A stretch of 64,000 bases of DNA from Phycicoccus endophyticus (GTDB taxonomy: Bacteria > Actinomycetota > Actinomycetes > Actinomycetales > Dermatophilaceae), in assembly GCF_011326735.1 (NCBI RefSeq), contig NZ_JAANCN010000006.1, positions 124,001-188,000 of the forward strand. The letters are read 5' to 3'. The notes under the pieces were generated by a model, which worked only from the letters and a program-made list of their open reading frames with translations, was not told the origin of the DNA and did no database searches. Below, in pieces: positions 48,441-63,300 of this stretch. The first letter of the stretch is position 1. The number at the start of each line of letters is the position of its first letter. The position numbers were made by a program, and so were the translations under genes.

Positions 48441-48476
48441 GGCCCCAACCCTCCCTATCGGCGTGGTCGGCCGCCT

Positions 48477-48493
48477 TCACCCAGGGCGGGTGA
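48477..48493. promoter_or_regulatory. Regulon palindrome 1 (TCACCC-N5-GGGTGA), divergent
   Basis: Perfect 6-bp arms around a 5-bp spacer, centred in the 88-nt gap between the phosphodiesterase operon (start 48440) and the membrane protein gene (start 48529). On the plus strand TAGCCT (48517-48522) is 23 bp downstream and 6 nt before the GTG, predicting a leaderless mRNA. On the minus strand GAGGGT (48453-48448) is also 23 bp away and would start RNA one base before the ATG. One site can thus serve both directions. Confidence 0.75.
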
Positions 48494-48528
48494 GGCCGCC
48501 GGATCCCCGGCCCGCCTAGCCTCGCGAG

Positions 48529-49743
48529 GTGAGCGCCCAACCGTCGGGCCGCCCCGGTCCACGGGTCGACGCCCAGACGGACCGGGGCCGTCGGGTGGCC
48601 TCGGTGCTCTGCTCGGTCCTGGCCGCCCTGCTCACCGGCCCGGCCGTGGCCGCGGCGGCGGTCCACCAGGTCGCGACGGACGGCGACGCCTACGTCCGGC
48701 TCGTCGGTCCACTGGCCGAGGACCCGGCCGTGCAGGACGCGGCCGTCCGACACCTCGTCGACGCCGTCGACGACCGTCTCGTCGATGATGCACCGCTCGA
48801 CCTCGCGGCGGATGCCCTCGAGTCGCGTGGGGTACCGCCCGCGCTCGCGCGTGCCCTGCAGCTGCCCGCCGACCCGGCTCGGGACGCCGTGCTCGACCGC
48901 GTCCGCGCCACATCGGACGCGGTCGTCTCGAGCCCGGCCTTCGCGCGCTCCTGGACCACGGCGAACGCCGCCGCCCACGAGCGCGCGATCGGCCTCCTTC
49001 GGGGTGAGACCACGCCGCCCACCACGGACGACGGCACGGTGGGCGTCTCCCTCGATCCCCTCCTCGACACCGTGCTGGCCGACCTCGCTCACGCCGGTGT
49101 CCCGGGCGTCACCAGCCTGTCCCCGCCTCCGGTCGTCATCCCGGTGGTCCGCGCCGACCGGCTCGAGCAGTGGCAGCGGTCCTACCGCCTCCTCACTGCG
49201 GGGACGACGGCACTCGCCCTCGCCCCGGGCGCGCTGTTCCTCCTCGGTGTCTCCCTCGCCCGCGACCGGCGCCGGGCAGTCCGGCGCAGCGCCGCCGGTG
49301 CCGTGGTGTCCGTCCTGGTGCTCCTCGTCGTCGTGGCGCTGGTCCGGGAACGGATCCTCGACGAGGTGGCCGCGCCGGACCGTGCGGCGGTCGGCGCCGT
49401 CGTCACTGCCGTCACCGGGCCCGTCCGCGGGGCCTTGCGGTGGACCGCGGTGGCCCTGCTCGTCGTGGTCGGCGCCACGGCCGTGGACCGGGCTCGCACC
49501 GACGCGGTCGGCGCCCTGGTGCGCGCAGCTCGGCGGCACCCCGCCACCCCGGTCCTCGGCATCGCCCTGGCCCTCGGGTGCCTGCTGGCAACCACCTGGG
49601 CCGGGTCGTCACTCGCGTCGACCATCGCTCTCTCGGCGGGTGCCGCACTGGGGGTGTCCCTCACCGTGTCGGCGTCCCGACGCAGGCCGGGGAGCTCAGA
49701 GGAGGTGCGCCCGACGGGCCTCGGTGATCGCGTCCCGCCGTGA
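48529..49743 (+). CDS. Membrane protein of unknown function
   Basis: A 404-residue protein. An N-terminal TM helix (about 22-45), an extracytoplasmic region of about 170 residues rich in Asp/Ala/Val, then four TM helices (near 222-245, 255-275, 300-325, 345-385) and a basic C-terminus. No catalytic motif is recognised. The start GTG coincides with the +1 of the predicted leaderless promoter controlled by palindrome 1. Its last 48 bp overlap the end of the convergent LuxR gene. Confidence 0.75.
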   Translation: MSAQPSGRPGPRVDAQTDRGRRVASVLCSVLAALLTGPAVAAAAVHQVATDGDAYVRLVGPLAEDPAVQDAAVRHLVDAVDDRLVDDAPLDLAADALESRGVPPALARALQLPADPARDAVLDRVRATSDAVVSSPAFARSWTTANAAAHERAIGLLRGETTPPTTDDGTVGVSLDPLLDTVLADLAHAGVPGVTSLSPPPVVIPVVRADRLEQWQRSYRLLTAGTTALALAPGALFLLGVSLARDRRRAVRRSAAGAVVSVLVLLVVVALVRERILDEVAAPDRAAVGAVVTAVTGPVRGALRWTAVALLVVVGATAVDRARTDAVGALVRAARRHPATPVLGIALALGCLLATTWAGSSLASTIALSAGAALGVSLTVSASRRRPGSSEEVRPTGLGDRVPP

Positions 49744-52290
49744 GGCCACTCCGAGCTTGCGGTACACGCTGCGGAGGTGCGTCTTCACCGTGTTCACCGA
49801 GACGACGAGCGACGAGGCGATCTCCTCGACCGTCTTCAGCGTGGGGAGCTCGCACAGGACGTCGAGCTCACGTTGGGTGAGCGCGACCGTCGGCGCCGCC
49901 GACGCGCGCGCCCTCCGCACGATCTCCTCGACGAGGGCCTCGTTGCGGCCCCATCCCCCGAACTTGCCGTCGAGGAGGTCGAGCACGGCCTGTCCGCCGA
50001 CGTCCACGACGGGTCGGGCGGCACCGAGGCGGGCCGCGTCGTCGAGCACGGACGCCAGCCGGCGCAGCGCCACGTGCTGGTTCCCGGCCTCGGCGTGGAG
50101 CCGGACGAGCAGCATCTCCGCGTAGACCCGGTTGAGCTCGAGGACGACGGGTCGCTCGCCGTCGGCGACGGCCCGGAGGGCTTCGACGGCCTGCCGTCGC
50201 TGGCCACGGGCCAAGGCGTGGATCGCCGCGACGACGAGGACCTCGCCGGCCGACCCGAGGCGTTCCCGGGCGGCCTCCGAGATCTCCCGCAACCGGTCGC
50301 GTCGACCCGTCTCGTGGGCGATGAGGGCGTCCGCAACGGCGAGCACGGCCACGGCGTCGCTTGCGATGTGCTCGTCGGCCGGGGCGGTGAGCCACAGTCG
50401 GTGGACGCGGTCGACGTCGGTGAGGACACCGTCACCGTCGAACCGGGACGCGGCCGCCAGGGCCGCCACCCCCAGCTGGACGGTGGGGTCGTCGCGTCCC
50501 GAGACGAGCGCGGACGCGCGGGATGCGTGAATACGGCTCGCTGTGTCGTGCAACGCGGCCCGTTCGGCCCATCCTCCGAGCAGGTGCAGGTAGGTGGCCC
50601 GCGCCGTCTCCGTCCAGCCGCAGCGCTGGGCGACGGCCGACGCCCGCTCGACGTACTCGCGCACACCGTGGAAGTCGGACTGTGCCGCTCGGACGGCGCC
50701 GAGCATCGTCAACGCGTCCAAGAGCGCGGCGTCGGCGGTCCGTCCGGCCGCCAAGGTGGCAGCGGTGCGGAGCAGGTGTTCCGCCTCGTTGAGCGACCCG
50801 GCCCGCAGCAGCGCCGTCCCGCGGGCCAGGGCGAGAAGGAGCCCGACGTCGGGTCCAACGGACGGAGGGGGGTCCCCCGAGTCCGGGACGACCTGGGCTC
50901 CCTGGAGCACTAGGACCCGCAGTCGTACCGCCTCCTCGAGAGCTGCGACCTCGGCCTCCCCCGCTGCTGCCCCCTGCATCACGTCGACCTCGGTCGCCGC
51001 CTCCGCTGCCCGTCCCAGGTCGAGCAGCGCGGCCGCCCGGACCGCCCGGACCCACCGCCCTCCGGGCGAGTGTGCGCCGCCGGGCAGCAACGCCAGCAGC
51101 CGCTCGGAGCGTCCGACCGCGACGAGGCCGGGCCCGGCTCGAGCCAGCACGGCTTCGAGCACACCGTCGTGCTCGCTGCGTACTGCGTGGTCGGTCGCCT
51201 GCAGGGCAGCGCCGTGGTCGAGGAACCACTTCGCCGATCGGGCGTGGCGGTCTCGGGCGAGGACGGCGTCCCGGCGCAGCTGCTCCGCCTGGAGGTAGAC
51301 CCGCAGACTCGCATGGAGGTGGTACTCGATCCGCCCGTCATGGTCCCGGACCCTGTGCACGAGACCGGTCGCCCGGCCGGCGTCGTCGAGCAGGGCGCCG
51401 GCGTGGGGACACCTCGTGAGCTCCGTGACGAGCGCCAATGGCACGGTCTCCGCAACCGACGCGGCCATGAGCACCGAGAGGGCCTCCGGCCCGATGCGAC
51501 GTAGCCCCTCCCCGAACACGGCGTCCATGAGGGGCCGCTCGTCGTCCCAGACGTCGGCCACCCGGCCGCCGCCGCGCAGCGCGACGCCCACGAGGCGCGT
51601 CAAGGCGGGCCAGCCCTCGGTCCCCGACCACACCGCCCGCCGATCCTCGGGCCCGAGCCAGGGGCACACCAGACCGGTCTCCTCCTCCGTGAAGGCGAGG
51701 TCGCGCGCCCGCAGGTGCGCCAGCCGTCCGTCGAGGCGGTGGTCGAGGACGGTCGGCAGCGGCGGCAGTGTCCGGCTCGTCATGACCACCCGCACGCCGG
51801 ACGGCAGGCGGTGGAGGAAGTGGTCGAAGGCGCGGAGGGTGACGGCGTCGTGCAGCAGGTCGACCCCGTCGAGAACGACGAGGAGCCGCCCGCCGACGAG
51901 CCGGTCCACGAGCTCCAGGACGAAGAGCTCGTCCCCGGCGGTCTCCGGTGGGTGCAGCCCCCGCAGGGCGGTCGCCCACTCCTCCCCCGACGCACGGATC
52001 GCCGCCACCACCTCACGCCAGAACAGGCGACGCGACGCGCCGGCTGCGGTCAGCTGGAGCCACGCCACCGGCCACCCCGCGGCCTCGGCCCGGTGCGCCC
52101 ACGTGTGAGCCAGCGTCGTCTTTCCGAATCCCGGTGGGGCGGAAAGCAGGACCGCCGTGCACGCTGCGACCGGCACGAGCTCGCGGTCGATGAGGAGGTC
52201 GAGCCGCGGGCGTGCAACAACACCCGAGAGGTCGTCCGTCAGACCCTCGTCCAGCACCGCGCCCCGATCGGGGCCGATGGCCCTCAGCAT
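49696..52290 (-). CDS. Large LuxR-family (LAL/MalT-like) transcriptional activator
   Basis: An 864-residue regulator. An N-terminal STAND/AAA ATPase has Walker A APPGFGKTT near 51-59 and a Walker B-like LLVVLDGVDLLHD near 135-147. The middle is a long alpha-helical tetratricopeptide-like region (about 330-780), and the C-terminal LuxR HTH lies at about 795-858 (LTQRELDVLCELPTLKTVEEIA, VSVNTVKTHLRSVYRKLGV). MalT-type proteins activate when a ligand and ATP promote oligomerisation. It sits in the middle of genes carrying the palindrome and is the only DNA-binding regulator seen in the element, so it is the candidate activator. Its own promoter lacks the palindrome. Confidence 0.9.
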   Translation of the reverse strand: MLRAIGPDRGAVLDEGLTDDLSGVVARPRLDLLIDRELVPVAACTAVLLSAPPGFGKTTLAHTWAHRAEAAGWPVAWLQLTAAGASRRLFWREVVAAIRASGEEWATALRGLHPPETAGDELFVLELVDRLVGGRLLVVLDGVDLLHDAVTLRAFDHFLHRLPSGVRVVMTSRTLPPLPTVLDHRLDGRLAHLRARDLAFTEEETGLVCPWLGPEDRRAVWSGTEGWPALTRLVGVALRGGGRVADVWDDERPLMDAVFGEGLRRIGPEALSVLMAASVAETVPLALVTELTRCPHAGALLDDAGRATGLVHRVRDHDGRIEYHLHASLRVYLQAEQLRRDAVLARDRHARSAKWFLDHGAALQATDHAVRSEHDGVLEAVLARAGPGLVAVGRSERLLALLPGGAHSPGGRWVRAVRAAALLDLGRAAEAATEVDVMQGAAAGEAEVAALEEAVRLRVLVLQGAQVVPDSGDPPPSVGPDVGLLLALARGTALLRAGSLNEAEHLLRTAATLAAGRTADAALLDALTMLGAVRAAQSDFHGVREYVERASAVAQRCGWTETARATYLHLLGGWAERAALHDTASRIHASRASALVSGRDDPTVQLGVAALAAASRFDGDGVLTDVDRVHRLWLTAPADEHIASDAVAVLAVADALIAHETGRRDRLREISEAARERLGSAGEVLVVAAIHALARGQRRQAVEALRAVADGERPVVLELNRVYAEMLLVRLHAEAGNQHVALRRLASVLDDAARLGAARPVVDVGGQAVLDLLDGKFGGWGRNEALVEEIVRRARASAAPTVALTQRELDVLCELPTLKTVEEIASSLVVSVNTVKTHLRSVYRKLGVASRRDAITEARRAHLL

Positions 52291-52296
52291 GTTCTC

Positions 52297-52302
52297 AGGG
52301 TA
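52297..52302 (-). promoter_or_regulatory. -10 box of a leaderless promoter for the LuxR gene
   Basis: TACCCT on the minus strand ends 6 nt before the ATG at 52290, so the A of the ATG is at +1. No Shine-Dalgarno sequence precedes the ATG. No convincing -35 is seen. Confidence 0.5.
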
Positions 52303-52337
52303 GTGGAGTCGCGGACCGGCCGCTCGCCGGACACCGC

Positions 52338-52580
52338 TCAGTCCGGGAGACGTCGCATCTCCTGCACCGGAATTCCGAGAGTCTGGAACCGCTCGAGTAG
52401 ACCGTAGAGGTGCGCCTCGTCCTCGACCTCTCCGAAGAGGACGGTGCCCTCGGTGGGCGCTGTCGCCTCCTCGAGCTCGGGGAAGGCAGCCGTCACGGTC
52501 TCCGAGAGCCGCCCGTCCAGGCGGAACTCGTAGCGCACGACGTCGCTCGGGGATCGACGTCGACCGGTGCGCGGCGTCAT
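52338..52580 (-). CDS. Conserved small protein of unknown function
   Basis: An 80-residue soluble protein: basic N-terminus, then YEFRLDGRLSETVTAAFPEL, TVLFGEVEDEAHLYGLLERF and IPVQEMRRLPD. A beta-alpha-beta arrangement with LFG and GLLERF suggests a small ferredoxin-like or ACT-like fold. The ATG at 52580 is preferred to 52622 because GGAGG is 6 nt upstream and because it overlaps the stop of a 24-codon ORF (ATGA). No enzymatic role can be proposed. Confidence 0.75.
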   Translation of the reverse strand: MTPRTGRRRSPSDVVRYEFRLDGRLSETVTAAFPELEEATAPTEGTVLFGEVEDEAHLYGLLERFQTLGIPVQEMRRLPD

Positions 52581-52651
52581 TGCGCCCTCCGCGGGCCGGG
52601 CCCGGACGGCAAGGAGCGCCATGGCGTGAGGGTGCGGTCGTGGCGTGTCAT
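52577..52651 (-). CDS. 24-residue small ORF coupled to the 80-residue protein gene
   Basis: ATG 52651 is preceded by an ideal AAGGAG (52657-52662, 5-nt spacing). The ORF encodes a basic 24-residue peptide (begins MTRHDRTLTPW, ends GPRRAQ), and its TGA overlaps the ATG of the next gene as ATGA. A good -10 (GACGCT) and regulon palindrome 2 lie upstream, so this is the first translated unit of the operon. It could be a leader controlling downstream translation or a functional micropeptide; only RBS, promoter and coupling support it. Confidence 0.55.
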   Translation of the reverse strand: MTRHDRTLTPWRSLPSGPGPRRAQ

Positions 52652-52706
52652 GGTCTCTCCTTCGACGTCGCCGGTGCCAGCGTCGGCTGTGGAGCCGGCC
52701 GGCGGC

Positions 52707-52723
52707 TCATCCGTGACGGGTGA
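52707..52723 (-). promoter_or_regulatory. Regulon palindrome 2 (TCATCC-N5-GGGTGA)
   Basis: Arms TCATCC (52707-52712) and GGGTGA (52718-52723) with a 5-bp spacer; one arm position deviates from perfect symmetry. It lies in the 104-nt gap after the DUF389 gene. On the minus strand GACGCT (52684-52679) is 22 bp downstream and predicts RNA from about 52672, 21 nt before the 24-codon ORF. Confidence 0.65.
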
Positions 52724-52755
52724 GTCCGGGTCACCGCGGACTGCGCACCGTGACA

Positions 52756-53796
52756 TCAGCCGGCGGGCAGCACCACCGAACCGCCGACCACCAGGGTCAC
52801 GTCCACGTCGGTGTCCGCGAGGCCGGCGCGGTCGAGGGCGGCACGGAGGGACTCCGCGTCGGCCTCCGGGGGCCGCCCGATGCTCACGATGTGCAGGACC
52901 CCGGCGCGCAAGAACACGTCGGTCACGGTCCAGCCCTGGTCCGCGGCCCACTTCTGCGCCACCGGTCGGGCCGCTGCGACAGCGGTCTGCTCCTGCACCA
53001 CGTTGCGGCTCCCCACGGCGAGCGGCACCGCGACGAGGATGATCGACCCCGCGACGATCGCGAGCGTCCGGCCTGCGAGGACGCCGACCTCGGCACCGGC
53101 CCTGTGGGCCGCTTCGCGCAGCCGCGCGATGAGGAGCACGGCCGTCCCCGTCGCGATGATGGCCGCGACGTTGGTGCCGAAGAGGAGGAGCGCCCCGAGG
53201 GCCTCGTCGGGGCTGCCCGACTCAAGAGTGAGCCCGACGACCGCGAGCGGTGGCACGAGGGAGATCGCGATGGCCACGCCGGGGAGACTGTCCGCGACGT
53301 CCGAGCGGGTCAGCGCGTAGGCCCCGACGACCCCGGTGGCGAGCGCGGAGATCAGGTCGATGAGCCGGGGGCTGACCCGACCGGCGACCTGGCTGTTGGT
53401 GTCGGCCACGACGTCCAGAGGCACGGTCAGCCCCAGGAGCCACCCCACGGCCACCACCGTTGTCGCGCCGCTGACGACGAGGAGCATGTTGGCCACTAAC
53501 TGTCGCCGACGGGACAGCACGATCGCACAGGCGGTGCCGAGGATCGGCCGCATCAGGGGGGCGACGATCATGGCGCCGATGACGGTCGCGGTGGAGTCGG
53601 CCACGATCCCGGCGCCGGCGATGACGGCCGACAGGACGAGCAGGACCCAGAACGAGGACAGCATCCGGGCCCGGTGCGGACCGTCCAGGAAGTACGTGCC
53701 CGTGATCCGCTCGACGTCCGCGGGGGTCAGGCGGTCAAGCCCTCGCGCGCCGAGCCCGCCCGCCGTCACGACCGGACCCTCCGGTGGCCCCGCCAC
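52756..53796 (-). CDS. DUF389 membrane protein
   Basis: A 346-residue protein with six to seven TM helices (residues 40-250) and a C-terminal soluble domain of about 85 residues. DUF389 hallmarks are SFWVLLVLSAVIAGAGIVADSTATVIGAMIVAPLMRPILG (in blocks) and VADSLPGVAIAISLVPPLAVVG, with the conserved ADSTA and GAMIVAPLM residues. No transport substrate is established for the family. GTG 53796 is the longest start; GTG 53769 is a reasonable alternative. It is 34 nt downstream of the symporter gene and probably in one transcript with it. Confidence 0.85.
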   Translation of the reverse strand: MAGPPEGPVVTAGGLGARGLDRLTPADVERITGTYFLDGPHRARMLSSFWVLLVLSAVIAGAGIVADSTATVIGAMIVAPLMRPILGTACAIVLSRRRQLVANMLLVVSGATTVVAVGWLLGLTVPLDVVADTNSQVAGRVSPRLIDLISALATGVVGAYALTRSDVADSLPGVAIAISLVPPLAVVGLTLESGSPDEALGALLLFGTNVAAIIATGTAVLLIARLREAAHRAGAEVGVLAGRTLAIVAGSIILVAVPLAVGSRNVVQEQTAVAAARPVAQKWAADQGWTVTDVFLRAGVLHIVSIGRPPEADAESLRAALDRAGLADTDVDVTLVVGGSVVLPAG

Positions 53797-53830
53797 ACCG
53801 CCACCACGCCACGCCGGTGGGCCGACACCG

Positions 53831-54715
53831 TCACGCCGCCGTCGGCGACGCGCCGGCCTGCGGCTCGGCGGTCACCGCCCCTGCTCCGAGCCGCGCCGCG
53901 GCGACAAGGAGGACGACGGAGGAGAGGATGGCGGCGACCAGGGTCCGCACGACGACGTCGGGGTCCATGGACGCGGCCACGACGAGGGCCGCCGCGATGT
54001 TCCGCTGCGCGGCAGCGAGTCCGAGGAGTCTTCGGTCGGGGGTGGACCGGGTCCGGTTCACGAGAGCCCCGACGACGTAGGCGATCGCGAGCAGCCCGAG
54101 CGTCCCTACGAAGATCCAGGAGCCGACGGACCCGACGATGTCCCGCCAGGCCGCGAGCAGTCCGGCCACGAGCGCGAGCACGATCGCCCCGGTCGGGACC
54201 GGCGCGAGCACCCGGGCCCACGATGCGGCGACCTCCGGCAGCCACGCGCGGAGCCCGAGCCCGGCCGCCAGCGGCAGCAGCATGACGACGACGAGTGAGA
54301 GGGCGATGGGCCCGGCGGACACGCTGGCCCCCTCGACCGCGACGGGCACGACGAGCGGCGCGTAGACGACCGTGACGACCATGAGCAGGACCATGACCGC
54401 GACCGAGATCGCGAGGTCACCATGGACCAGCCGGGCCAAGGTCGGCAGGAAGGGGGCACCCGCGCAGCAGGCCACGAGGACGAGGGCCGTGCCGGTGGCC
54501 GGCTCGACGGGGAGGAGCCGGACGAGCAGCACGACGACGGCCGGGACGACGGCGAAGTTCACGACGAGCGTCCCGGCGACGAGCCGCACGTCCCGCAGAG
54601 GTCTCGTCACGCCACGCACCGTGAGCGCAAGACCGGTCGTCACCATCCCGACGACGACGAAGGTCAGCATCCCCGCCCGGGCCACGGCCACCAGCGCCTC
54701 GGTGGCGCCGGTCAT
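53831..54715 (-). CDS. Bile acid:sodium symporter (BASS)-superfamily transporter
   Basis: A 294-residue protein with nine to ten TM helices. Features are GMVTTGLALTVRGVTRPLRDVR near the N-terminus, CCAGAPFLPTLARLVHGDLAISVAVM in the first repeat and LGLAAAQRNIAAALVVAA in the second, matching the crossover helices of BASS proteins. Organic anions, arsenite or small acids are carried by relatives. ATG 54715 is chosen because it precedes the first TM helix; the in-frame ATG 54820 would add 35 polar residues. It is divergent from the SulP gene, with palindrome 3 between. Confidence 0.8.
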   Translation of the reverse strand: MTGATEALVAVARAGMLTFVVVGMVTTGLALTVRGVTRPLRDVRLVAGTLVVNFAVVPAVVVLLVRLLPVEPATGTALVLVACCAGAPFLPTLARLVHGDLAISVAVMVLLMVVTVVYAPLVVPVAVEGASVSAGPIALSLVVVMLLPLAAGLGLRAWLPEVAASWARVLAPVPTGAIVLALVAGLLAAWRDIVGSVGSWIFVGTLGLLAIAYVVGALVNRTRSTPDRRLLGLAAAQRNIAAALVVAASMDPDVVVRTLVAAILSSVVLLVAAARLGAGAVTAEPQAGASPTAA

Positions 54716-54847
54716 CGCGGGCCGCTTAGCGTGGACCCGCTCACTGCGGACGACGCTCGGGAATGCTCCATCACCGCTCCCTCGCGTGGACCGGCGGACG
54801 TCCGCCGGTGCGGCGCCCATCGCACCAGCTCCACGAGCCCGGTCACC

Positions 54848-54864
54848 TCATCCCCTCCGGGTGA
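54848..54864. promoter_or_regulatory. Regulon palindrome 3 (TCATCC-N5-GGGTGA)
   Basis: Arms TCATCC (54848-54853) and GGGTGA (54859-54864). On the plus strand TACCGT (54888-54893) follows after exactly 23 bp and stands 6 nt before ATG 54900, the same geometry as palindrome 1 including the leaderless start. In the other direction, toward the BASS-DUF389 genes, the -10 is less clear. Confidence 0.7.
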
Positions 54865-54899
54865 ACCGCCGACGTCGACCGCGTCCCTACCGTGGCGCG

Positions 54900-56612
54900 A
54901 TGCGCGAGCGTGCGACCCGTCCCGACGGTGCGCCCGCCCCGGGCGAGGACCTCGTCGCGCGACCCTCGCGGTCGCTGCGTGGCGTCCTGCCCGTCTTGGC
55001 CTGGCTGCCCCGCTACGCGCCCGGGCGGGACCTGCCGCGTGACGTCGTCGCCGGGATCGCCCTCGCCGCCCTGCTCGTCCCCGAGTCCATCGGGTACGCC
55101 GGCATCGCCGGGGTCCCTCCCGAGGTCGGACTGTACGCGGCCATCGCGGCCATCGCGGCCTACGCGGTGTTCGGCGGCACCTCCGTCCTCGTCGTCGGAC
55201 CCGCGTCCGCCGTGGCCGCGCTGAGCGCGTCCCTGGTGGCCGAGATCGCCGGCACCGGCGTCGACCCCGTGGCCGTGACCACGGGGCTCGCCCTCGCCTC
55301 CGGCGTCCTCCTGGTCCTCGCCGGAGCCCTCCGCCTGGGGTGGATCGTCAACTTCGTGTCCCGACCGGTCCTCCACGCCTTCGTCGCCGGACTCTCCATC
55401 GCGATCGTCGTCGGACAGCTCGACACCCTGCTCGGCCTCGAGCTCGAGCGAGAGACCGCGCTCGGCCGTGCTGTCGAGGTGGTGACCCACGTCCCCGCGT
55501 GGCAGCCCCCGGTCGTCGCGGTCGGCGTCGGCTCCCTGCTCCTCATCCTCGTGCTCGAGCGACGGGTGCACCGCGTCCCTGCCGCGCTCGTCGTCGTCGT
55601 CGCCGGGATCCTCGCCGTCGCCGTCCTCCACCTCGATCGGCACGGCGTGCCCGTCCTCGGCGACATCCCACAGGGGCTGCCGACACCCGGGATCCCCGAC
55701 CTCGGAGCAGGCGCCTGGCTCGAGCTCGCGGCCGGCGCGACCGCGCTCCTCCTCGTCGGCTTCTCCGAGGGGTTCGCCGCGGCCAGCGCCGTGGCCGACC
55801 GGACCGGCGAGGACGTCGACGGCGATCAGGAGCTGCTCGGCTCCGGCGCGGCGAACGTCGCCGCCGGCCTGTTCGGCGGCCTGGCTGTCTCCGGCAGCCT
55901 TTCGAAGTCCGCCGCGAGCCAGGCCGCCGGCGCCCGTACCCAGGTCGCCAATCTCGTCGCCGGTCTCGTCGTCCTCGCGTCCCTCCTCGTCCTCGGCCCC
56001 GTCGTCGCCCTCCTCCCGGAGCCGGTCGTCTCGGCGGTCGTCATCGCCGCAGTCTTGCCCGCCGCCGACCCCCGTCGCGTCCTGCGCCTCTGGATCGTCA
56101 ACCGGCTCGACTTCGTCGCCGGTGTCACGACGTTCGTCCTCGTCCTCGTCTGGGAGACCCTGCCGGCCATGGCCGTCGGGGTCCTCCTGTCCCTCGTCTT
56201 CCTCGTGCGGCGGGCCAGCTTCCCGTCTGTCGTCGAGCTCACCGAAGGTCCCGACGGCTTCCACGCCGGCTCACCACTCGACGCGACCGCCTCCCGGCCG
56301 GACGTCGGGGTGCTGAGGTTCGGCGCCCCGCTCGTCTACGCGAACCAGGACCGGCTTCTGCGTGCCGTCCGCGGTCTGGTGGAGGGACGACCGGGTATCA
56401 CCCGGGTCGTCCTCGACATGGAGATGGTCGCCGACCTCGACACCGACGGCGCGGACGCCCTGCGCACCGCGGACACGTGGCTCGCCGAGCACGGGGTCGC
56501 GCTGCACCTGGCCCGGACGCACGAGGCGACGCGCCGGCAGCTCGCACGCTCCGGGGTGGACCGGGAGTTCGAGCACCGGCTGCACCAGCACATCCGGGAC
56601 GCGGTCGACTGA
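54900..56612 (+). CDS. SulP-family anion transporter with STAS domain, first
   Basis: A 570-residue transporter. About 12-14 TM helices (residues 45-440) carry the SulP signature LAALLVPESIGYAGIAGVPPEVGLYAA near 66-92 and GLAVSGSLSKSAASQAAGARTQVANLVAG (in blocks), the anion-site region. A C-terminal STAS domain spans about 455-565 (VLRFGAPLVYANQD, VVLDMEMVADLDTDGADAL). Members carry sulfate, bicarbonate or organic anions. ATG 54900 coincides with +1 of the leaderless promoter; no RBS precedes it. Confidence 0.92.
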   Translation: MRERATRPDGAPAPGEDLVARPSRSLRGVLPVLAWLPRYAPGRDLPRDVVAGIALAALLVPESIGYAGIAGVPPEVGLYAAIAAIAAYAVFGGTSVLVVGPASAVAALSASLVAEIAGTGVDPVAVTTGLALASGVLLVLAGALRLGWIVNFVSRPVLHAFVAGLSIAIVVGQLDTLLGLELERETALGRAVEVVTHVPAWQPPVVAVGVGSLLLILVLERRVHRVPAALVVVVAGILAVAVLHLDRHGVPVLGDIPQGLPTPGIPDLGAGAWLELAAGATALLLVGFSEGFAAASAVADRTGEDVDGDQELLGSGAANVAAGLFGGLAVSGSLSKSAASQAAGARTQVANLVAGLVVLASLLVLGPVVALLPEPVVSAVVIAAVLPAADPRRVLRLWIVNRLDFVAGVTTFVLVLVWETLPAMAVGVLLSLVFLVRRASFPSVVELTEGPDGFHAGSPLDATASRPDVGVLRFGAPLVYANQDRLLRAVRGLVEGRPGITRVVLDMEMVADLDTDGADALRTADTWLAEHGVALHLARTHEATRRQLARSGVDREFEHRLHQHIRDAVD

Positions 56613-56628
56613 AACGCCACCGTCGGTC

Positions 56629-56645
56629 TCACCCATGACGGGCGA
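56629..56645 (+). promoter_or_regulatory. Regulon palindrome 4 (TCACCC-N5-GGGCGA)
   Basis: Arms TCACCC (56629-56634) and GGGCGA (56640-56645), one arm position deviating. GAGGCT (56669-56674) lies 23 bp downstream and predicts RNA from about 56681. It is 75 nt before the second HdeD-type gene and just after the SulP stop. Confidence 0.6.
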
Positions 56646-56720
56646 GGTGGCACCGGCACCGTCCTCGGGAGGCTGGCCGTCGACGTCACCGTGACGCCGG
56701 CCACCGGAAGGAGCCTGCCG

Positions 56721-57278
56721 ATGTCGACCATCGTCCGGGAGGAGCGCACGGGCTGGGACATCGCCCTCGGGGCGTTCCTCGTCCTCGCCGGGTTCGTCGT
56801 CCTCGGGCACACGATCATCGCGACCGCGGTGTCGGTGCTCTTCGTCGGGTGGACGACCCTGCTCATGGGGGTCGTGGCGGTCGTCGTGACCCTCTTCCGG
56901 ATCGGCAAGGACGGGTTCTGGACCGGGATCATCGGGGGCGGCCTCCTCGCGGCCATCGGGTTCGCGATGGTCCGCAACCCGGGGGTCGCGGCCCTGACCC
57001 TGACCCTGGTCGCCGGCTCCTTGTTCTTCAGCACGGGCATCGTCCGCCTCGTCGCCGCCTTCGGGACCGGCGAGGGTCGCGTCGCCCTCCTGCTGAGCGG
57101 CGGTGTGTCGACACTTCTCGGCCTGTCCGTCCTCTTCAACCTGTTCTCGTCGACCTTCGCCTTCCTCGGCGTCCTGCTCGGCGTCCAGGCCATCGTCGAG
57201 GGAATTTCGGTCATGGTCGCCGGACGCCGTCGGATCGTCCCGGCCGGACGCCACGATGCCTCCCGGGCCACCGCCTGA
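56721..57278 (+). CDS. HdeD-family membrane protein (DUF308), second
   Basis: A 185-residue, six-TM DUF308 protein: ALGAFLVLAGFVVLGHTIIATAVS, LFVGWTTLLMGVVAVV, GILGGGL-type glycine segments and a short basic C-terminus. It has the strong RBS GGAAGGAG 7 nt before ATG 56721. Only distantly similar to the first DUF308 protein at 44702. Its last 23 bp overlap the ATPase gene, so the two are coupled. Confidence 0.87.
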   Translation: MSTIVREERTGWDIALGAFLVLAGFVVLGHTIIATAVSVLFVGWTTLLMGVVAVVVTLFRIGKDGFWTGIIGGGLLAAIGFAMVRNPGVAALTLTLVAGSLFFSTGIVRLVAAFGTGEGRVALLLSGGVSTLLGLSVLFNLFSSTFAFLGVLLGVQAIVEGISVMVAGRRRIVPAGRHDASRATA

Positions 57279-58674
57279 CCGCGGTCCGCCGACCGACCGC
57301 CGGCAGGTCGGGTCGCCGGACGGGCGGACCTTCGGACTGCACGACGGGCAGCCGCCGTTGACGCCCGGCGACCTGTGGACGGTGGAGGAAGGGCCTGGCG
57401 AGATCGTCCTCCAAGCGCTCACGCCTCGGACAGGCAGCGTCCTCGGCCGTCTGGACGACGACCGTCTCGACCCGGACGTCGCGGGCTGGGCGCGGCTCGA
57501 CGCCCGGCCGGCCGTCGCCGACACCCTGTCCGCGATCCACCGGGCGTCCGGGGCGCAGATTCCCGTCGGCACCTGGGACGCCGGGTCCGCCTCGTCGGCC
57601 GCCCTGCTCCGGGCCTCCGGCTTCAACCGCCACACCTTCCTGTGCGGCCAGAGCGGGTCGGGCAAGACCTACGCCCTCGGCGTCCTCCTCGAGCAGTTGC
57701 TGCTCGGCACCGAGCTCCCAATGGCGGTCCTCGACCCGAACGCCGACTTCGTCCGGCTGGCGGAGACCCGGCCGGACGTCGAGGCCGACGTCGCCGCCCG
57801 GCTGGGCGCTGCCGACATCCGGGTCCTCGGCCGAGAGCCGGAGCGCGAGCCGTTGCGGATGCGGTTCGTGACGATGCCGCGGCGGGCCCAGGCCGCGGTG
57901 CTCCGGCTCGACCCGCTCCGGGACCGGGCGGAGTACAACCTGTTCCTGGACTCGCTGAGCGCCGGGCGGCCTCCGCTCGAGGGCGTCGAGGCCTACGTGC
58001 GCACCCTTCTGGGCGGCGGTACGGACGAGCGCGCCCTGGCGCAGCGGATCCAGAACCTCGGGCTTCCGGAGTGGGAGGTCTTCGCCCGGGAGGACCGGTC
58101 CGCGGCCGAGGTGGTCCGCGGTGGCGCCCGCGTCACCGTTCTCGACCTCGCCGGCTTCGACGACCCCCGGGCCGGGTCGGCGGTGAGCCTGGACCTCCTG
58201 GAGAACCTGTGGGCCGGGCGCCACGAGCGGTGCCCGCAGCTCCTCGTCATCGACGAGGCCCACAACATCTGCCCTGCCCATCCGGTCGGGGAGATCCAGG
58301 AGATGCTCGTCGAGCGTCTCGTGCAGATCGCCGGGGAGGGCCGGAAGTACGGACTGTGGCTGCTGCTGTCCACCCAACGTCCGTCCAAGGTCCACCCCCA
58401 GGTGCTCTCGCAGTGCGACAACCTCATGCTCATGCGGATGAACTCGCCTGCGGACGTCGAGGAGGTCGTCGACCTGTTCGGCTTCGCGCCACCGGAGATG
58501 CTGCGACGGGCGCCGTTCTTCCGGCAGGGCGAGGCCGTCTTCGCCGGCCGGTTCGCCCCGTGCCCGATGCGGGTGCGGATGGGTCGACGGCTCACCGTCA
58601 ACGGTGGGTCCGACGTCGCCGTCCCGCTCGCACCGGCCGCGGCGGCTGCCACTGCCGACCGCGACCGGATCTGA
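57256..58674 (+). CDS. HerA/VirB4-like P-loop ATPase
   Basis: A 472-residue ATPase of the HerA-FtsK superfamily. The N-terminal region (1-110) is probably a beta-rich HAS-barrel-like domain. Walker A GQSGSGKT is at 131-138, VLDPNADFVRL after strand 2, Walker B LLVIDEAHNICP near 330-341 with the conserved Glu, EGRKYGLWLLLSTQRPSKV near 358-376 with the Q and arginine of DNA pumps, and SQCDNLMLMRM near 382-392. HerA proteins translocate DNA with nuclease NurA, but no nuclease gene is adjacent. The start overlaps the DUF308 gene by 23 bp; no separate promoter is seen. Role with membrane proteins unclear. Confidence 0.85.
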   Translation: MPPGPPPDRGPPTDRRQVGSPDGRTFGLHDGQPPLTPGDLWTVEEGPGEIVLQALTPRTGSVLGRLDDDRLDPDVAGWARLDARPAVADTLSAIHRASGAQIPVGTWDAGSASSAALLRASGFNRHTFLCGQSGSGKTYALGVLLEQLLLGTELPMAVLDPNADFVRLAETRPDVEADVAARLGAADIRVLGREPEREPLRMRFVTMPRRAQAAVLRLDPLRDRAEYNLFLDSLSAGRPPLEGVEAYVRTLLGGGTDERALAQRIQNLGLPEWEVFAREDRSAAEVVRGGARVTVLDLAGFDDPRAGSAVSLDLLENLWAGRHERCPQLLVIDEAHNICPAHPVGEIQEMLVERLVQIAGEGRKYGLWLLLSTQRPSKVHPQVLSQCDNLMLMRMNSPADVEEVVDLFGFAPPEMLRRAPFFRQGEAVFAGRFAPCPMRVRMGRRLTVNGGSDVAVPLAPAAAAATADRDRI

Positions 58675-58697
58675 CCACCGAGGAAGAGGAGGACGTC

Positions 58698-59186
58698 ATG
58701 GCCACGCTGACCGTCTGGAAGTTCGGGTCCGCCACGGGAGCGCAGGACGCGGTACGAACGCTGGAGGCGCTCACGAGCCAGGAGCTCATCACCGTGCACG
58801 ACGCCGCGACGGTGTCGTGGCCCGAAGGGAAGAAGAAACCCAGCACCCGGCAGGTGAACGACCTGCGCACCTCCGGTGCCCTCGGAGGGGCCTTCTGGGG
58901 AATGCTGTTCGGCTTGATCTTTTTCGTCCCCCTGCTCGGCGCTGCCATCGGCGCCGCCGCCGGGGCCCTCTCGGGAGCCCTCAGCGACGCCGGGATCGAC
59001 GACGGTTTCATCAACCGCGTCCGGGACGAGCTGACCGAAGGGACCTCGGCCCTGTTCCTGCTCTCCTCCGACGCCGTCATCGACCGCGTCCGCGAGGCCT
59101 TCGCCGGACAGGACCTCGAGCTCATCCGGACCAACCTCTCGCGCGAGGAGGAGGACGCCCTGCGCGCTGCCTTCGCCGAGGAGTAG
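58698..59186 (+). CDS. DUF1269 membrane protein
   Basis: A 162-residue protein with the DUF1269 layout: an N-terminal beta-alpha segment (ATLTVWKFGSATGAQDAVRTL), a polar region, a glycine/alanine-rich hairpin of two TM helices near 70-100 (GALGGAFWGMLFGLIFFVPLLG), and a C-terminal alpha/beta segment (GTSALFLLSSDAVIDRVREAF). Strong purine-rich RBS before ATG. It is 23 nt after the HerA-like gene and ends the operon. Function of the family is unknown; it often accompanies SulP, DUF308 or stress genes. Confidence 0.88.
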   Translation: MATLTVWKFGSATGAQDAVRTLEALTSQELITVHDAATVSWPEGKKKPSTRQVNDLRTSGALGGAFWGMLFGLIFFVPLLGAAIGAAAGALSGALSDAGIDDGFINRVRDELTEGTSALFLLSSDAVIDRVREAFAGQDLELIRTNLSREEEDALRAAFAEE

Positions 59187-59240
59187 GACGAGCGCCCGGC
59201 CCCCGAGCCGTCGGGGCGCCGCCGAGTCGCGTCCAGGTCC

Positions 59241-60884
59241 TCACTCGTCGGACCGGAACTCCCTCAGGGCGTCCCGGTAGGCCCGGCGGGTCGTGTCCCC
59301 GATCCACTCCGTCCCGAGGTAGACGTGCTCTGCCCCCAGCTCGTCGACGAGGCCCTCGCCCCGCAGCTGCCGCAGAGCGCGCTCGGTGCCGAGCACGACC
59401 TTGAGGGCACCACCCCGGGCGCTCAGCTCGGCTCCGTACCGGCGCAGGACGTCCACGAGCGTCAGCCCGAGCTGGTCCACACCGCGGAAGCGGATGACCA
59501 CGCACGCACCCGTACTGCCGTCCGTCACCCGCGGAAGCTGCCGTTCCAACACCGGGGCGCTGGCGAAGAACAGGCTCCCGTACGGCTGGAGGACGACGAC
59601 GTCTCCCGCCTCGAGCGTGGCCGGTGGATCCGTCTCGCGGTACCGACCGTCGGCGCGCAGCTCCACCCGGCGCAGGCTGACGCGGTTGGACTGGTCGGCG
59701 ACGTGCAGGACGATGGCCAGCCCGACCCCGGTGACGACCGCGTACTGGAGCGGCACGACGACGGTCAGCACGAAAGTGACGGCCAGGACCGTCGCCTGGA
59801 ACGGGCCCGTGCGCACCACGGAGAGGAAGGCCGCGGGCTTGACCGTGCGGATGCCGACGACGACGAGCAGCGCGGCCAGCGCCGGCATCGCCACACGCCC
59901 GACGACGTCGGACAGGGCGAGGATCACGACCGCCATCGTGAGACCGGCCACGAAGAACGCCGCCCGGCTGCGGGCACCGGCCGCATGGACCAGGGCCGAG
60001 GCCGACATCGACCCGCCGACCGGCATCCCCTGGAAGACGCCGGACAGCACATTCCCAGCGCCCTGGGCCACGAAGTCCCGCGACGCGTCGGACCGGCGGC
60101 CGTCCGGGTTCGGCAGGCCCGACGACACCGCCGCTCCCTGCACGAGACCGACGAACGCCAGCGACAGTGCGGGGACCACGAGAGACAGGAGGTCTCCGAG
60201 CACCGGGAGCCGTGGAGCGGGCAACGTGCCCGGCAGGTCGGCGAGGTCGGACACGAGCGCCACGTCGAGGTGCAGCACGGCGGGAAGGATGGACGCCGCC
60301 GCGACGGCGACAACGAGGCCGAGCGAGCGCAGGCGGGTGCGCTCGAGGCCGACGATCAGCAGCACCGTGAGCGCGCCGACCGCGACGGACGCGACGTCGG
60401 CGCGACCGGGGTGGACGAGCAGGTCGGCCGCGCGCAGCAGACGATTCCCGGCCTCCGAGGCGTACCCGCTGAGGTTCGAGAGCTGACCGAGCACGATGTT
60501 GACCCCGACGGCGCTGACGAAGCCGGTCATGACCGCCGTGGGGACGAACCGCAGCAGCCGACCACCGCGGAGCAGTCCGGCCACGACCATGACGAGCCCG
60601 GTCAGCACCGCGAGGGTGAACAGCGCCCGTTCGGGGTCCGGCCGGGAGGCGAGATCGGTGTCGGCGACGACGAGCGACATCGCGCCGGTCGCCTGCACCG
60701 CCATGAAGGTGCTGCTCGTGAAGGCCGCGGCACCGACCATCCCGAAGAGGTAGCCGTACAGGCCGGAGACCGGGTCGACCCCCGCGAGGACGCCACTCGC
60801 GAGACCATCGGGAACGCTCTCGACCCCCAGCACCACCCCGGCCACGGCGTCCGAGCGCAGGTCACCGGTCCTGGACCGGGTCAC
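59241..60884 (-). CDS. SulP-family anion transporter with STAS domain, second
   Basis: A 547-residue transporter whose first TM helix begins almost at the N-terminus (SDAVAGVVLGVESVPDGLASGVLAG), with QATGAMSLVVAD, FVGLVQGAAVSSGLPNPDG and GNVLSGVFQGMPVGGSMSASAL as SulP core motifs, and a C-terminal STAS-like domain from about 425. It is divergent from the first SulP protein. Its GTG overlaps the arylsulfatase stop (GTGA), so sulfatase and transporter are made together, which suggests sulfate or an organosulfur anion as cargo. Confidence 0.88.
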   Translation of the reverse strand: MTRSRTGDLRSDAVAGVVLGVESVPDGLASGVLAGVDPVSGLYGYLFGMVGAAAFTSSTFMAVQATGAMSLVVADTDLASRPDPERALFTLAVLTGLVMVVAGLLRGGRLLRFVPTAVMTGFVSAVGVNIVLGQLSNLSGYASEAGNRLLRAADLLVHPGRADVASVAVGALTVLLIVGLERTRLRSLGLVVAVAAASILPAVLHLDVALVSDLADLPGTLPAPRLPVLGDLLSLVVPALSLAFVGLVQGAAVSSGLPNPDGRRSDASRDFVAQGAGNVLSGVFQGMPVGGSMSASALVHAAGARSRAAFFVAGLTMAVVILALSDVVGRVAMPALAALLVVVGIRTVKPAAFLSVVRTGPFQATVLAVTFVLTVVVPLQYAVVTGVGLAIVLHVADQSNRVSLRRVELRADGRYRETDPPATLEAGDVVVLQPYGSLFFASAPVLERQLPRVTDGSTGACVVIRFRGVDQLGLTLVDVLRRYGAELSARGGALKVVLGTERALRQLRGEGLVDELGAEHVYLGTEWIGDTTRRAYRDALREFRSDE

Positions 60885-63220
60885 TGCCTGCGGTACCTCG
60901 CCTTCACGACGAGGTCGGCGTCGTGCTCGGCATCCGGGTCGATGTCGATGTCGACCGCCTTGATCGTGCCGGTGAACTCGCCCCGCGGCGTGGTGTAGTC
61001 CCGGACGACGGGGTCGAGGCTGTCCAGCCCCACGTCGAGGCCCTCGTCGAACGAGAACAGACCCGGCACGGTCCTCGGCACCCGGCCTTCCCCGATGGCG
61101 CGGCCGTCGCACTGCAGCCGCACCGTCCCACCTTTGCCCGCGCCACCCCCGTCGTAGTCGAACGCCATTCCCAGGACGTGGTCGCCGCCACCGACCGGCT
61201 CGTGCGAGCGGACGGTGTAGGTCTCCATCCCCACGAAGTTGTGGGCGTAGCAGAGATGGCCGTCCCGTGCGTACAGGCACCAGCCGCCGAAGCTGCCGCC
61301 CTGCGCGACGATCGCCCCCTGGACCGGCTCCTCGGGCAGCGACACGTCAGCGGTCACCGTGAACGAGGTGTTCTTCACGTTGAGCACCGTGTTCTCGTTG
61401 AGCCGGGTCATCCCGGGATGGAGGGTCATCCGGGTGCGTCCGGCCATGAGGTCCGGGCGGCCGGCCAGCCGCGCGTCGAACCGTTCACGCTCGCGGTCGT
61501 CAAGAGGCAGGACGTGGTACTTCGCAGCCTCGATGAGGAACCGTTGCTGGAGAGCGGCCAGGACCTCCGGGTGCGCGTCGGCGACGTCGTGGGCCTGGGT
61601 CCAGTCGTCGGGCCCGTAGAGCTCCCACCGGTCCTCGTCGAGCGGTGGGGTGACCCAGTCGGGGTCGGGCCAGGGCAACAGGTGCTGGGTCACGGCAGTC
61701 CACCCCTCGTGGTACACACCACGGTTGCCCGCGATCTCGAAGTACTGGGTGCGGTGCCGCTCGGGTGCGCCCCCGTCCTGGAGGGCGTAGACGAAGCTCG
61801 TCCCCTCCAACGGGCTCTGGTCGATGCCGTTCACCGTGTCCGGCGCCGGGATCCCCACCAGCTCGAGGACGGTGGGGACGACGTCGATGACGTGGGTGAA
61901 CTGCGAGCGGGCCTCGCCCGCGGGCACGACGGGCGGGTACCGCAGGACCATGCCGGTCCGGGTCCCGCCCCAGTGCGACGCGACGATCTTGCTCCACTGG
62001 TAGGGGGTGTTCATCGCCTGCGCCCACCCCGACGGCATGTGGTTGAACGCGGTCGGGCCGCCGATCTCGTCGACGTGCTCGCGGATGTCGTCCGTCGTCA
62101 TCAGGACGTTGTTCTGGTAGGCCATCTCGTTGAACGTCCCGTACGCACCCGCCTCGGCCGAGGACCCGTTGTCGCCGAGGATGTACAGCACCACCGTGTC
62201 GTCGAGCACGCCTCGATCCTCGAGGGCGGCGAGGACCCGGCCCACCTGGTCGTCGGTGTGGCTGGCCATCGCGGCGTAGGCCTCGAAGAGGCGGGTGCCG
62301 ACGAACCGGTCGTCGTCGGTGAGGTCGGACCAGGCCGGGATGTAGGCGTTGGGTTCGGTGAGGTCGGCGTCCTCCGGGACGACACCCAGCTCCTGCTGGC
62401 GCGCGAACGTCAGTTCCCGCTGCTCGTCGTAGCCGTGGTCGAAGCGGCCGCGGTAGCGCTCCAGGTACTCCCGTGGAGCGTGGTGCGGCGCGTGTGTCGC
62501 GCCGAAGGCCAGGTAGGCGAACCAGGGCTTGTCCGGGGTGAGCGCACCCAGGGCCCCGGTCCACGCCAGGAGCTGGTCGACCAGGTCCTCCGACAGGTGG
62601 TACCCCTCCTCGGGAGTCCGAGGCGGTTCGATCGGTGTCGTCCCCTCGACCAGGGCGGGCGTGTACTGGTGGGTGTCCCCCCCGAGAAACCCGTAGAACT
62701 TCTCGAAGCCCTCCCCCGTCGGCCAGCGGTCGAAGGGACCGGACGGGCTGGTCTCCCACGGCGGTGTCTGGTGCATCTTGCCGAAGGCGCCCGTGGAGTA
62801 CCCGTTCATCCGGAGGACCTGCGCCAACGTCGCACAGTCGTCCGGACGAATCCCCGTGTAGCCACGGAACGACGTCGCGATCTCCGCGATGACCCCCATG
62901 TTGGCGGAGTGGTGGTTCCGGCCGGTCAGCAGCGCCTGACGCGTCGGGGAGCAGAGTGCCGTCGTGTGGAAACGGGTGAACCGCGTCCCCTCGGCGGCCA
63001 TCCGCTCGGCGTGCGGCATCTCGCACGGGCCGCCGAACGCACTGCTGGCGCCGAACCCCATGTCGTCGATGAGGATCACGAGCACGTTCGGTGCGCCGGC
63101 CGGCGGGCGCAGCGGAGGTTGCGGCTCGGGGGCCACACCGTCCCGCGCGTCGACCGGGGTGTCCCCCGGTGGCGTTGCTGTCGCCAGGGGGAGACGGGAA
63201 CGGCTGCTCACGGGTGTCAT
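60881..63220 (-). CDS. Arylsulfatase (formylglycine-dependent) with C-terminal beta domain
   Basis: A 779-residue sulfatase. The metal-binding start VLVILIDDMGFG has Asp52/Asp53, and the sulfatase signature C-x-P-x-R is CSPTRQALLTGR with Cys90 to be converted to formylglycine. GAFGKMHQTP and VLYILGDNGSSAEAG supply further ligands. After about residue 550 a jellyroll-like region (TRLNENTVLNVKNTSFTVTADV, GGWCLYARDGHLCYAHN) resembles the extra domain of large arylsulfatases. There is no signal peptide, so it acts in the cytoplasm. A formylglycine-generating enzyme is not in the window. RBS GGAGA; promoter and palindrome 5 lie upstream. Confidence 0.93.
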   Translation of the reverse strand: MTPVSSRSRLPLATATPPGDTPVDARDGVAPEPQPPLRPPAGAPNVLVILIDDMGFGASSAFGGPCEMPHAERMAAEGTRFTRFHTTALCSPTRQALLTGRNHHSANMGVIAEIATSFRGYTGIRPDDCATLAQVLRMNGYSTGAFGKMHQTPPWETSPSGPFDRWPTGEGFEKFYGFLGGDTHQYTPALVEGTTPIEPPRTPEEGYHLSEDLVDQLLAWTGALGALTPDKPWFAYLAFGATHAPHHAPREYLERYRGRFDHGYDEQRELTFARQQELGVVPEDADLTEPNAYIPAWSDLTDDDRFVGTRLFEAYAAMASHTDDQVGRVLAALEDRGVLDDTVVLYILGDNGSSAEAGAYGTFNEMAYQNNVLMTTDDIREHVDEIGGPTAFNHMPSGWAQAMNTPYQWSKIVASHWGGTRTGMVLRYPPVVPAGEARSQFTHVIDVVPTVLELVGIPAPDTVNGIDQSPLEGTSFVYALQDGGAPERHRTQYFEIAGNRGVYHEGWTAVTQHLLPWPDPDWVTPPLDEDRWELYGPDDWTQAHDVADAHPEVLAALQQRFLIEAAKYHVLPLDDRERERFDARLAGRPDLMAGRTRMTLHPGMTRLNENTVLNVKNTSFTVTADVSLPEEPVQGAIVAQGGSFGGWCLYARDGHLCYAHNFVGMETYTVRSHEPVGGGDHVLGMAFDYDGGGAGKGGTVRLQCDGRAIGEGRVPRTVPGLFSFDEGLDVGLDSLDPVVRDYTTPRGEFTGTIKAVDIDIDPDAEHDADLVVKARYRRQ

Positions 63221-63283
63221 AGAAGGTCTCCGCTCTTGACCGGTCGGGTGCCGACATCGTGGTGCGTGCCGGGCGAGAGTCCT

Positions 63284-63300
63284 TCACCCTCCGAGGGTGA
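63284..63300 (-). promoter_or_regulatory. Regulon palindrome 5 (TCACCC-N5-GGGTGA)
   Basis: Perfect arms TCACCC (63284-63289) and GGGTGA (63295-63300). On the minus strand CACGAT (63261-63256) lies 22 bp downstream, predicting RNA from about 63249 and a 29-nt leader with GGAGA before the arylsulfatase ATG. Confidence 0.72.

Follow-up and report, generated by a model that had tools for sequence, protein, structure and literature searches.

In Actinoplanes sp. SE50/110, a region of 51 genes known as the MRLGR (ACSP50_3900-3950) is activated by a MalT-like regulator, ACSP50_3915 (Droste et al. 2020, PMC7567727). On maltose, 42 of the 51 genes are down in a malT deletion and 39 are up on overexpression, and 17 transcription start sites are preceded, at 34.4 +/- 1.0 nt, by the palindrome TCATCC-5nt-GGATGA (PMC7567727). 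Related regions with the motif were reported in four Micromonosporaceae (PMC7567727), and two further Actinoplanes papers mention the regulator or the region (PMC6828939, PMC11205506). The MalT box has the core GGA(T/G)GA (PMC9628970, PMC7567727), the LAL repressor SCO6993 has different operators (PMC9628970), and a word search of the accessible text of PMC3282765 gave no operator for SCO0877 or SCO7173. Here we analyse a 64,000-nucleotide stretch of the Phycicoccus endophyticus genome (contig NZ_JAANCN010000006.1, positions 124,001 to 188,000; hereafter the window), in which five copies of a similar palindrome lie in the cargo of an integrative element at a tRNA-Thr gene. The palindrome is very probably, on sequence grounds, the site of a MalT-like LuxR-type (LAL/STAND) activator whose copy in the element is encoded at 49696-52290, and we consider it highly likely that the five palindromes serve as the operators of this protein in a cargo regulon of the mobile element.

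An exact pattern scan for TCAYCC-N5-GGGYGA gives five sites in the window, at 48477, 52707, 54848, 56629 and 63284, none of them within a called gene, and no sixth exact copy anywhere in the window. A sequence-only reading of this DNA had placed five intergenic palindromes here and had seen no other in the first 44 kb, and that observation is confirmed. The spacer is 5 bp at all five sites. The half-sites, mostly TCACCC/GGGTGA, are strictly of the GGRTGA type at four of the five; at 56629 one half reads GGGCGA. Counted by direction, the window holds 7 exact matches against a mean of 0.04 and a largest value of 2 in 100 shuffles. A scan allowing two mismatches gave 30 matches against 42 expected, that is, no excess and no halo of weaker sites, so the signal consists of near-perfect sites only. 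The whole genome (3,177,191 bases, 21 contigs) has seven exact sites. The many equally good sites inside genes that the sequence-only reading had named as evidence against a regulon were not found: beyond the window there are only C4:19460 and C19:38911, each overlapping the 3' end of a called gene and lacking an nAnnnT hexamer at 22 or 23 bp in both directions.

These counts bear on the proposal that the palindromes arose by chance or from the composition of high-GC DNA, or are repeats that mobile elements have scattered, which we regard as barely credible. The chance-level number of two-mismatch matches is in its favour, but exact matches exceed the window shuffles and the reversed controls (in the genome, in 118 genomes and in 80 LAL loci), and conservation is confined to the half-sites, the 5-bp spacers being different. 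On the shuffles and reversed controls, together with the excess at spacer 5 and the recurrent -10 geometry, both described below, we reject a chance origin.

The promoter geometry is equally regular. A -10-like hexamer of the form nAnnnT lies 22 or 23 bp downstream of the palindrome in six of six gene directions of the window, as the sequence-only reading had it. Predicted operator 1 (TCACCCAGGGCGGGTGA, 48477-48493, perfect half-sites) is two-sided, with GAGGGT at 48448-48453 on the minus strand, 23 bp away and directed into a phosphodiesterase gene, and TAGCCT at 48517-48522 on the plus strand, also at 23 bp. Predicted operator 2 (TCATCCGTGACGGGTGA, 52707-52723) has GACGCT at 52679-52684 (minus strand, 22 bp); to its right CACCGT is found at 22 bp, but no gene starts there. 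Predicted operator 3 (TCATCCCCTCCGGGTGA, 54848-54864) has TACCGT at 54888-54893 (plus strand, 23 bp) and no nAnnnT at 22 or 23 bp leftward. The hexamers of predicted operators 4 (TCACCCATGACGGGCGA, 56629-56645) and 5 (TCACCCTCCGAGGGTGA, 63284-63300, perfect half-sites) are GAGGCT at 56669-56674 (plus strand, 23 bp) and CACGAT at 63256-63261 (minus strand, 22 bp). Sites 48477 and 54848 are alike, as had been claimed: both have the hexamer at 23 bp and, after it, a leaderless-type start, GTG at 48529 and ATG at 54900, each 36 bp past the last palindrome base.

Geometry was also computed for 185 sites taken from the window, from stretches of related genomes picked for the motif, and from LAL loci. 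A slightly relaxed motif pattern was used here and for the base frequencies, target families, HTH (helix-turn-helix) comparison and autoregulation counts, and genes outside the window were called by a codon-usage script and not by a standard gene finder. Only 8 of the 185 sites lie inside called genes. Outside the window, 66 of 79 one-sided sites have nAnnnT at 22/23 bp (54 of 67 after removal of near-duplicates, a correction made for the geometry alone among our counts), and other adjacent offset pairs have a mean of 3.7 and a maximum of 9; the promoter rule thus holds well beyond its five founding sites. At the 85 sites with genes on both sides, the hexamer is present on exactly one side in 66, on both in 8 and on neither in 11. 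Given this hexamer position, transcription is predicted to start about 35 nt from the palindrome.

Just downstream of the palindromes, base frequencies show a preference for G at offset 1 (0.77) and nothing that resembles a TTGACA hexamer. A palindrome upstream of a promoter that has no such hexamer fits activation, which supports the activator-type position beside the -35 region proposed from the sequence. We therefore weighed, and find improbable, the idea that the LAL binds the sites as a repressor or as a constitutive architectural factor. LAL repressors do exist, SCO6993 being one (PMC9628970), but the palindromes here lie upstream of the -10 and the start and not over them, and the Actinoplanes homologue activates (PMC7567727).

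The candidate activator, encoded at 49696-52290 on the minus strand, is an 864-aa MalT-like LAL/STAND protein with an ATPase, a helical-repeat sensor and a LuxR HTH. Pfam finds GerE (1.7e-13) and AAA domains, and the best NCBIfam match is MalT (8e-42), at 143 bits below the 537-bit equivalog cut-off. Pfam annotation of the window proteins recognised no maltose gene among the cargo, and we reject identity with the E. coli MalT equivalog on both counts. A profile of 22 LALs (A2), which includes the window's own and was mostly picked from LALs near sites, matches the E. coli MalT ATPase region (8bob, 2.8e-84), the MalT sensor (1hz4, 8e-14) and many LuxR-type HTH domains of solved structures, so the MalT domain order is present.

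The dyad is linked to such genes well outside this genome. We scanned the best 80 of at least 440 relatives' LAL loci (1.49 Mb, chosen by LAL homology and including near-identical Nocardia loci) for TCAYCC-Nk-GGRTGA with k from 0 to 12, and obtained 105 matches at k=5 and 0-4 at each other spacer; the reversed control gave 0 at k=5 and 0-1 elsewhere. At least one dyad is carried by 54 of the 80 loci. Among intergenic 6-bp dyads with spacers of 0-12 in these loci, TCACCC-N5-GGGTGA is the commonest bar N runs (47; the next, which is nested, 26). Across 118 genomes of the class there are 237 sites against 21 control matches, and an A2 hit at E<=1e-60 was obtained in 19 of 25 genomes with at least 4 sites versus 24 of the 93 others, eight candidates per genome being scored. 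All eight genomes with A2 hits at 1e-200, this genome among them, have 5 to 16 sites. As a single query against 58 relatives, the window LAL gives hits at 1e-20 in G030, G035, G039, G040, G048 and G057. The suggestion that the 49696-52290 LuxR protein is the regulator is supported by this linkage, and by the spacer in particular.

The spacer also decides against a different kind of regulator. BldM group I sites, bound by a dimer with LuxR-type HTH domains, have the same hexamer half-site, TCACcCgnncGgGTGA, with a 4-bp spacer (PMC4125116), and a BldM-like NarL/FixJ-type response regulator encoded elsewhere in the chromosome might bind the sites in place of the element's LAL. The identity of the half-site speaks for this, as does a LuxR-HTH hit of G048 that falls in a 304-aa frame at 1.9 kb from a site. 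All five window sites, however, have a spacer of 5 and not 4, which sets them apart from BldM group I, and a spacer of 4 gives only 2 sites in the LAL loci. We counted distances for 127 of 143 LuxR-HTH hits in five genomes (G057 was left out, and one G048 and one G031 LAL near sites are lacking). Within 5 kb of a site lie 5 of 39 hits in frames of at least 700 aa versus only 1 of 88 in shorter frames, and within 10 kb 6 of 39 versus 3 of 88. The genetics in Actinoplanes likewise point to a LAL (PMC7567727). Because of the spacer, a BldM-like regulator is rejected as the main explanation, and we consider it unlikely.

Returning to the element's LAL as the activator, its gene may itself be a target. 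Site 52707 faces a 24-codon open reading frame (ORF; 52577-52651, minus strand, read by eye) that overlaps the start of an 80-aa gene (52338-52580, minus strand), and the LAL gene follows after a 47-bp gap. A crude scan found no terminator-like match between the 80-aa and LAL genes, and positive feedback on the LAL is therefore likely here; judged from this arrangement, the LAL is probably positively autoregulated through site 52707. The 80-aa protein belongs to a LAL-linked family: of 38 small proteins of the RYEIRV... type (53-90 aa as called; seen in the window, L071, L134, L136, L151 and others), 33 are encoded no more than 1.5 kb from a LAL gene. An AlphaFold model of the window protein (pLDDT 78) is beta-alpha-beta-beta-alpha-beta, a predicted ferredoxin-like fold, and a fold search with it returned generic matches only, with no PDB match at E <= 0.001.

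Several results weigh against the LAL as the activator of these sites or narrow what can be claimed for it. The window LAL is only 21-31% identical to the other 21 LALs of A2, and 26 of the 80 LAL loci have no site. Near-identical HTHs occur both with and without sites, so the HTH alone does not predict them, and HTH sequence, tried by eye as a separator of the two groups, gave no clean split. Among the eight candidates scored per genome, no A2 hit was obtained in six of the 25 genomes that have at least 4 sites, and the finding at 1e-200 is partly circular because A2 consists mostly of LALs near sites, the window's included. The genomes are related, so p values are indicative only and do not represent independent tests. 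G035, G040 and G057 have single-query LAL hits but few sites, and site-rich G031 gave no single-query hit at 1e-20; its LAL, 6.4 kb from sites on contig C10, was found only by gene calling. The stricter hexamer TAnnnT is present at only 12 of the 79 one-sided sites. Among 91 LAL genes, a complete site lies directly upstream of 4 and, via a presumed operon, ahead of 4 more, the window included; for 15 a site lies within 400 bp with no -10 in that direction, and 68 have none. Direct or operon-level autoregulation can thus be proposed for only 8 of 91, or 6 distinct LALs (L055 and L118 are one genome, and L118 carries the LAL genes of G048/L055), and as a general rule it is not borne out. This genome has no DUF7144, the family most often found behind the motif in others, and in Actinoplanes, too, MalT binding is inferred (PMC7567727).

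Other observations concern the dyad in individual LAL loci. Similar HTHs with no N5 dyad in the locus were seen in L121, L122, L152, L186, L187 and L193 (Rhodococcus/Prescottella, Actinokineospora and Frankia). The four sites of L167 (Actinoplanes sp. TBRC 11911) are without exception TCATCC/GGATGA. At most sites of other loci one half or both read TCACCC or GGGTGA, and L158, another Actinoplanes, is mixed, a pattern that would be explained by drift of the half-sites between lineages. TCACCC-N5-GGGTGA lies within 60 bp of the 3' end of the LAL match in two metagenome-assembled genomes (MAGs), at L179:12804 (Caldilineaceae) and L195:4758 (Pseudomonadota). The dyad may reach beyond Actinobacteria, or these MAG contigs may be misplaced. 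Some sites come in pairs, separated by 60 to 281 bp, that share an intergenic region or precede a single gene: L048:9056 and 9116, L049:13757 and 13870, L139:8103 and 8170, and L050:3134 and 3415.

We propose the following course of events. An inducer and ATP would bring the LAL into an active oligomer, whose LuxR-type domains would bind the two half-sites (GGRTGA type, 5-bp spacer) beside or overlapping the -35 region. The bound LAL would recruit RNA polymerase to the nAnnnT -10 element 22-23 bp away, transcription would begin about 35 nt from the palindrome, and at two of the sites leaderless starts would result. With the LAL gene behind site 52707, positive autoregulation would follow. The targets would be SulP permeases, an arylsulfatase, a phosphodiesterase, and HdeD-type, AI-2E, DUF1269 and HerA-like proteins. 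The sites, their geometry, the link to LAL genes, the domain order and the ends of the element come directly from computation; binding, activation, the operons, autoregulation, an inducer and a physiological role are inferred from them.

The presumed transcription units agree with the claim that each site heads a gene or operon and that the targets form one regulon, to which 52707 adds the LAL gene. Leftward of site 48477 lie a type I phosphodiesterase-like gene with an N-terminal membrane segment (46386-48440, minus strand; Pfam PF01663 and PF04020), an AI-2E family transporter (45286-46389, minus strand; PF01594, 6.5e-41) and, as the last gene of the presumed operon, an HdeD-like membrane protein (DUF308; 44702-45283, minus strand; PF03729, 7.4e-18). 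Rightward is a membrane protein with no Pfam or NCBIfam match (48529-49743, plus strand), a homologue of which in G030 also starts behind the motif. Site 54848 precedes a SulP-STAS anion permease (54900-56612, plus strand; PF00916, 1.5e-85), and site 56629 precedes a second HdeD-like (DUF308) membrane protein (56721-57278), a HerA/DUF87-like ATPase (57259-58674) and a DUF1269 membrane protein (58698-59186; PF06897, 3.2e-38), all on the plus strand. Site 63284 is followed on the minus strand by an arylsulfatase-like protein (60881-63220; PF00884, 2.4e-64) and, second in the presumed operon, a SulP-STAS permease (59241-60881). Two genes in mid-cargo have no motif-type promoter, a DUF389 membrane protein (52756-53766, minus strand) and an SBF-family transporter (53831-54715, minus strand, start at 54715 or 54820).

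Elsewhere the set of likely targets is broader. We counted the family first behind the motif in 256 unblocked site-directions, with the number that also have a -10 in brackets; labels come from Pfam for example members, and those of MFS, AI-2E, HdeD and SulP from clusters or sequence reading. The commonest is DUF7144 with 20 (16), followed by PLDc_N-SHOCT proteins with 19 (14), the LAL-linked small proteins with 17 (14) and LAL genes with 15 (2). DUF1269 has 8 (7), alkyl sulfatase 8 (4), LapA-like proteins 8 (7; Pfam score below the cut-off), arylsulfatase 7 (7), MFS 7 (5), DUF6325 7 (6), AI-2E 6 (5), an unlabelled membrane family 6 (0), GH15 5 (4), HdeD 5 (3) and SulP 4 (3).

That the sites are cargo of a mobile element was borne out. 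A blastn self-comparison finds a 45-bp perfect direct repeat, with attL at 44491-44535, a perfect copy of the tRNA-Thr 3' end, and attR at window-equivalent 68104-68148, as the 3' end of a tRNA-Thr gene that is intact (ARAGORN). A tRNA-Arg called by ARAGORN at 44493 overlaps the repeat and was set aside as a tRNA-Thr fragment. Between the repeats, an element of about 23.7 kb holds the cargo (14 genes plus the 24-codon ORF), a TrwC relaxase (6.4e-50; plus strand, 63671-64000 in the window, ending at window-equivalent 66325), two small ORFs that, judged by eye, may encode DNA-binding proteins, and, next to the intact tRNA, a tyrosine integrase (window-equivalent 66823-67953; Phage_integrase 3.8e-17). 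Direct repeats, an integrase by an intact tRNA and a relaxase are the features of a tRNA-integrated mobilizable element. Because the set is the cargo of such an element, the regulator and the genome's correctly built operators would move together. The motif is not peculiar to the element, since it occurs at many separate places in other genomes. The cargo DNA was not found in a plasmid collection by megablast, and no plasmid record covered 80% of the LAL.

With the window LAL as query, none of eleven congeners gave a hit at 1e-20, and each has between 0 and 4 motif matches counted by direction. Ten of the 11 contain the flank right of the tRNA, and in several the tRNA end recurs at a distance of about 2 to 50 kb, which would be expected at an integration hotspot. 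Distant tRNA-Thr end copies near a tRNA-Thr gene were seen in G005, G006, G008 and G010. Such copies suggest other, sometimes stacked, integrative elements at the tRNA-Thr site of the congeners.

A wider reading, which we put forward only tentatively and think somewhat less probable than its opposite, is that an envelope regulon under a MalT-type STAND activator is widespread among actinobacteria, that its promoters keep to one fixed grammar (GGRTGA dyad, 5-bp spacer, -10 at 22/23 bp), and that it spreads as a self-contained package. The element would then have brought the activator, its positive feedback and all properly built operators into a genus with no LAL hit in 11 other sampled genomes, and the 80-aa protein would serve the STAND sensor as a dedicated partner or inhibitor. 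Aes and MalK are partners or inhibitors of this kind for E. coli MalT. MalY is another partner or inhibitor of E. coli MalT (PMC10427625). What had been a report on Actinoplanes and four relatives becomes a sequence rule readable in other actinobacterial genomes, by which a target is predicted wherever a GGRTGA dyad of spacer 5 is followed by nAnnnT at 22/23 bp. Through it the DUF7144, DUF1269, DUF6325 and SHOCT proteins of unknown function gain a probable shared regulator. The element offers a small, self-contained copy of the regulon in which one could look for the inducer and ask why an entire regulon moves on an integrative element.

The regulon is real, well built and known in kind; this copy, its status as cargo and its class-wide spread are undescribed as far as the literature was searched. 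Of the sequence-only reading, the single regulon, the activator position, the LuxR protein as likely regulator and the mobile cargo are supported. Its further suggestion that the regulon may be undescribed does not, as the motif, the distance and the activator were published for Actinoplanes in 2020 (PMC7567727). Among the matches listed from the open-licence literature, we found no description of the class-wide recurrence with other targets, or of regulator and targets together as the cargo of an integrative element. BldM differs further in being an orphan response regulator of differentiation (PMC4125116). E. coli MalT shares the domain architecture, the half-site core GGA(T/G)GA and, if the predicted promoters are right, a box beside the -35 region, but has repeats of the core where the present sites are palindromic pairs with a fixed 5-bp spacer (PMC7567727). 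The MRLGR is the closest. Both systems have a dyad of GGRTGA-type half-sites 5 bp apart and a LAL regulator gene inside the target cluster. In Actinoplanes the dyad lies at the -35 region, with the start at 34.4 +/- 1.0 nt; here it is predicted to lie there, with the start at about 35 nt. In the MRLGR, 24 of the 51 genes have no annotated function and 10 are membrane or transport related, and its authors suspected horizontal transfer (PMC7567727); two of its functions, aminopeptidase P and class II glutamine amidotransferase, are also found downstream of a site in G030. The half-sites, however, are TCATCC/GGATGA in Actinoplanes and mostly TCACCC/GGGTGA here, and the 51 genes there include arginine and peptide genes, whereas the 14 here include SulP, sulfatase and HdeD genes. 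The present set, in contrast to the MRLGR, is bounded by attL and attR and accompanied by an integrase and a relaxase.

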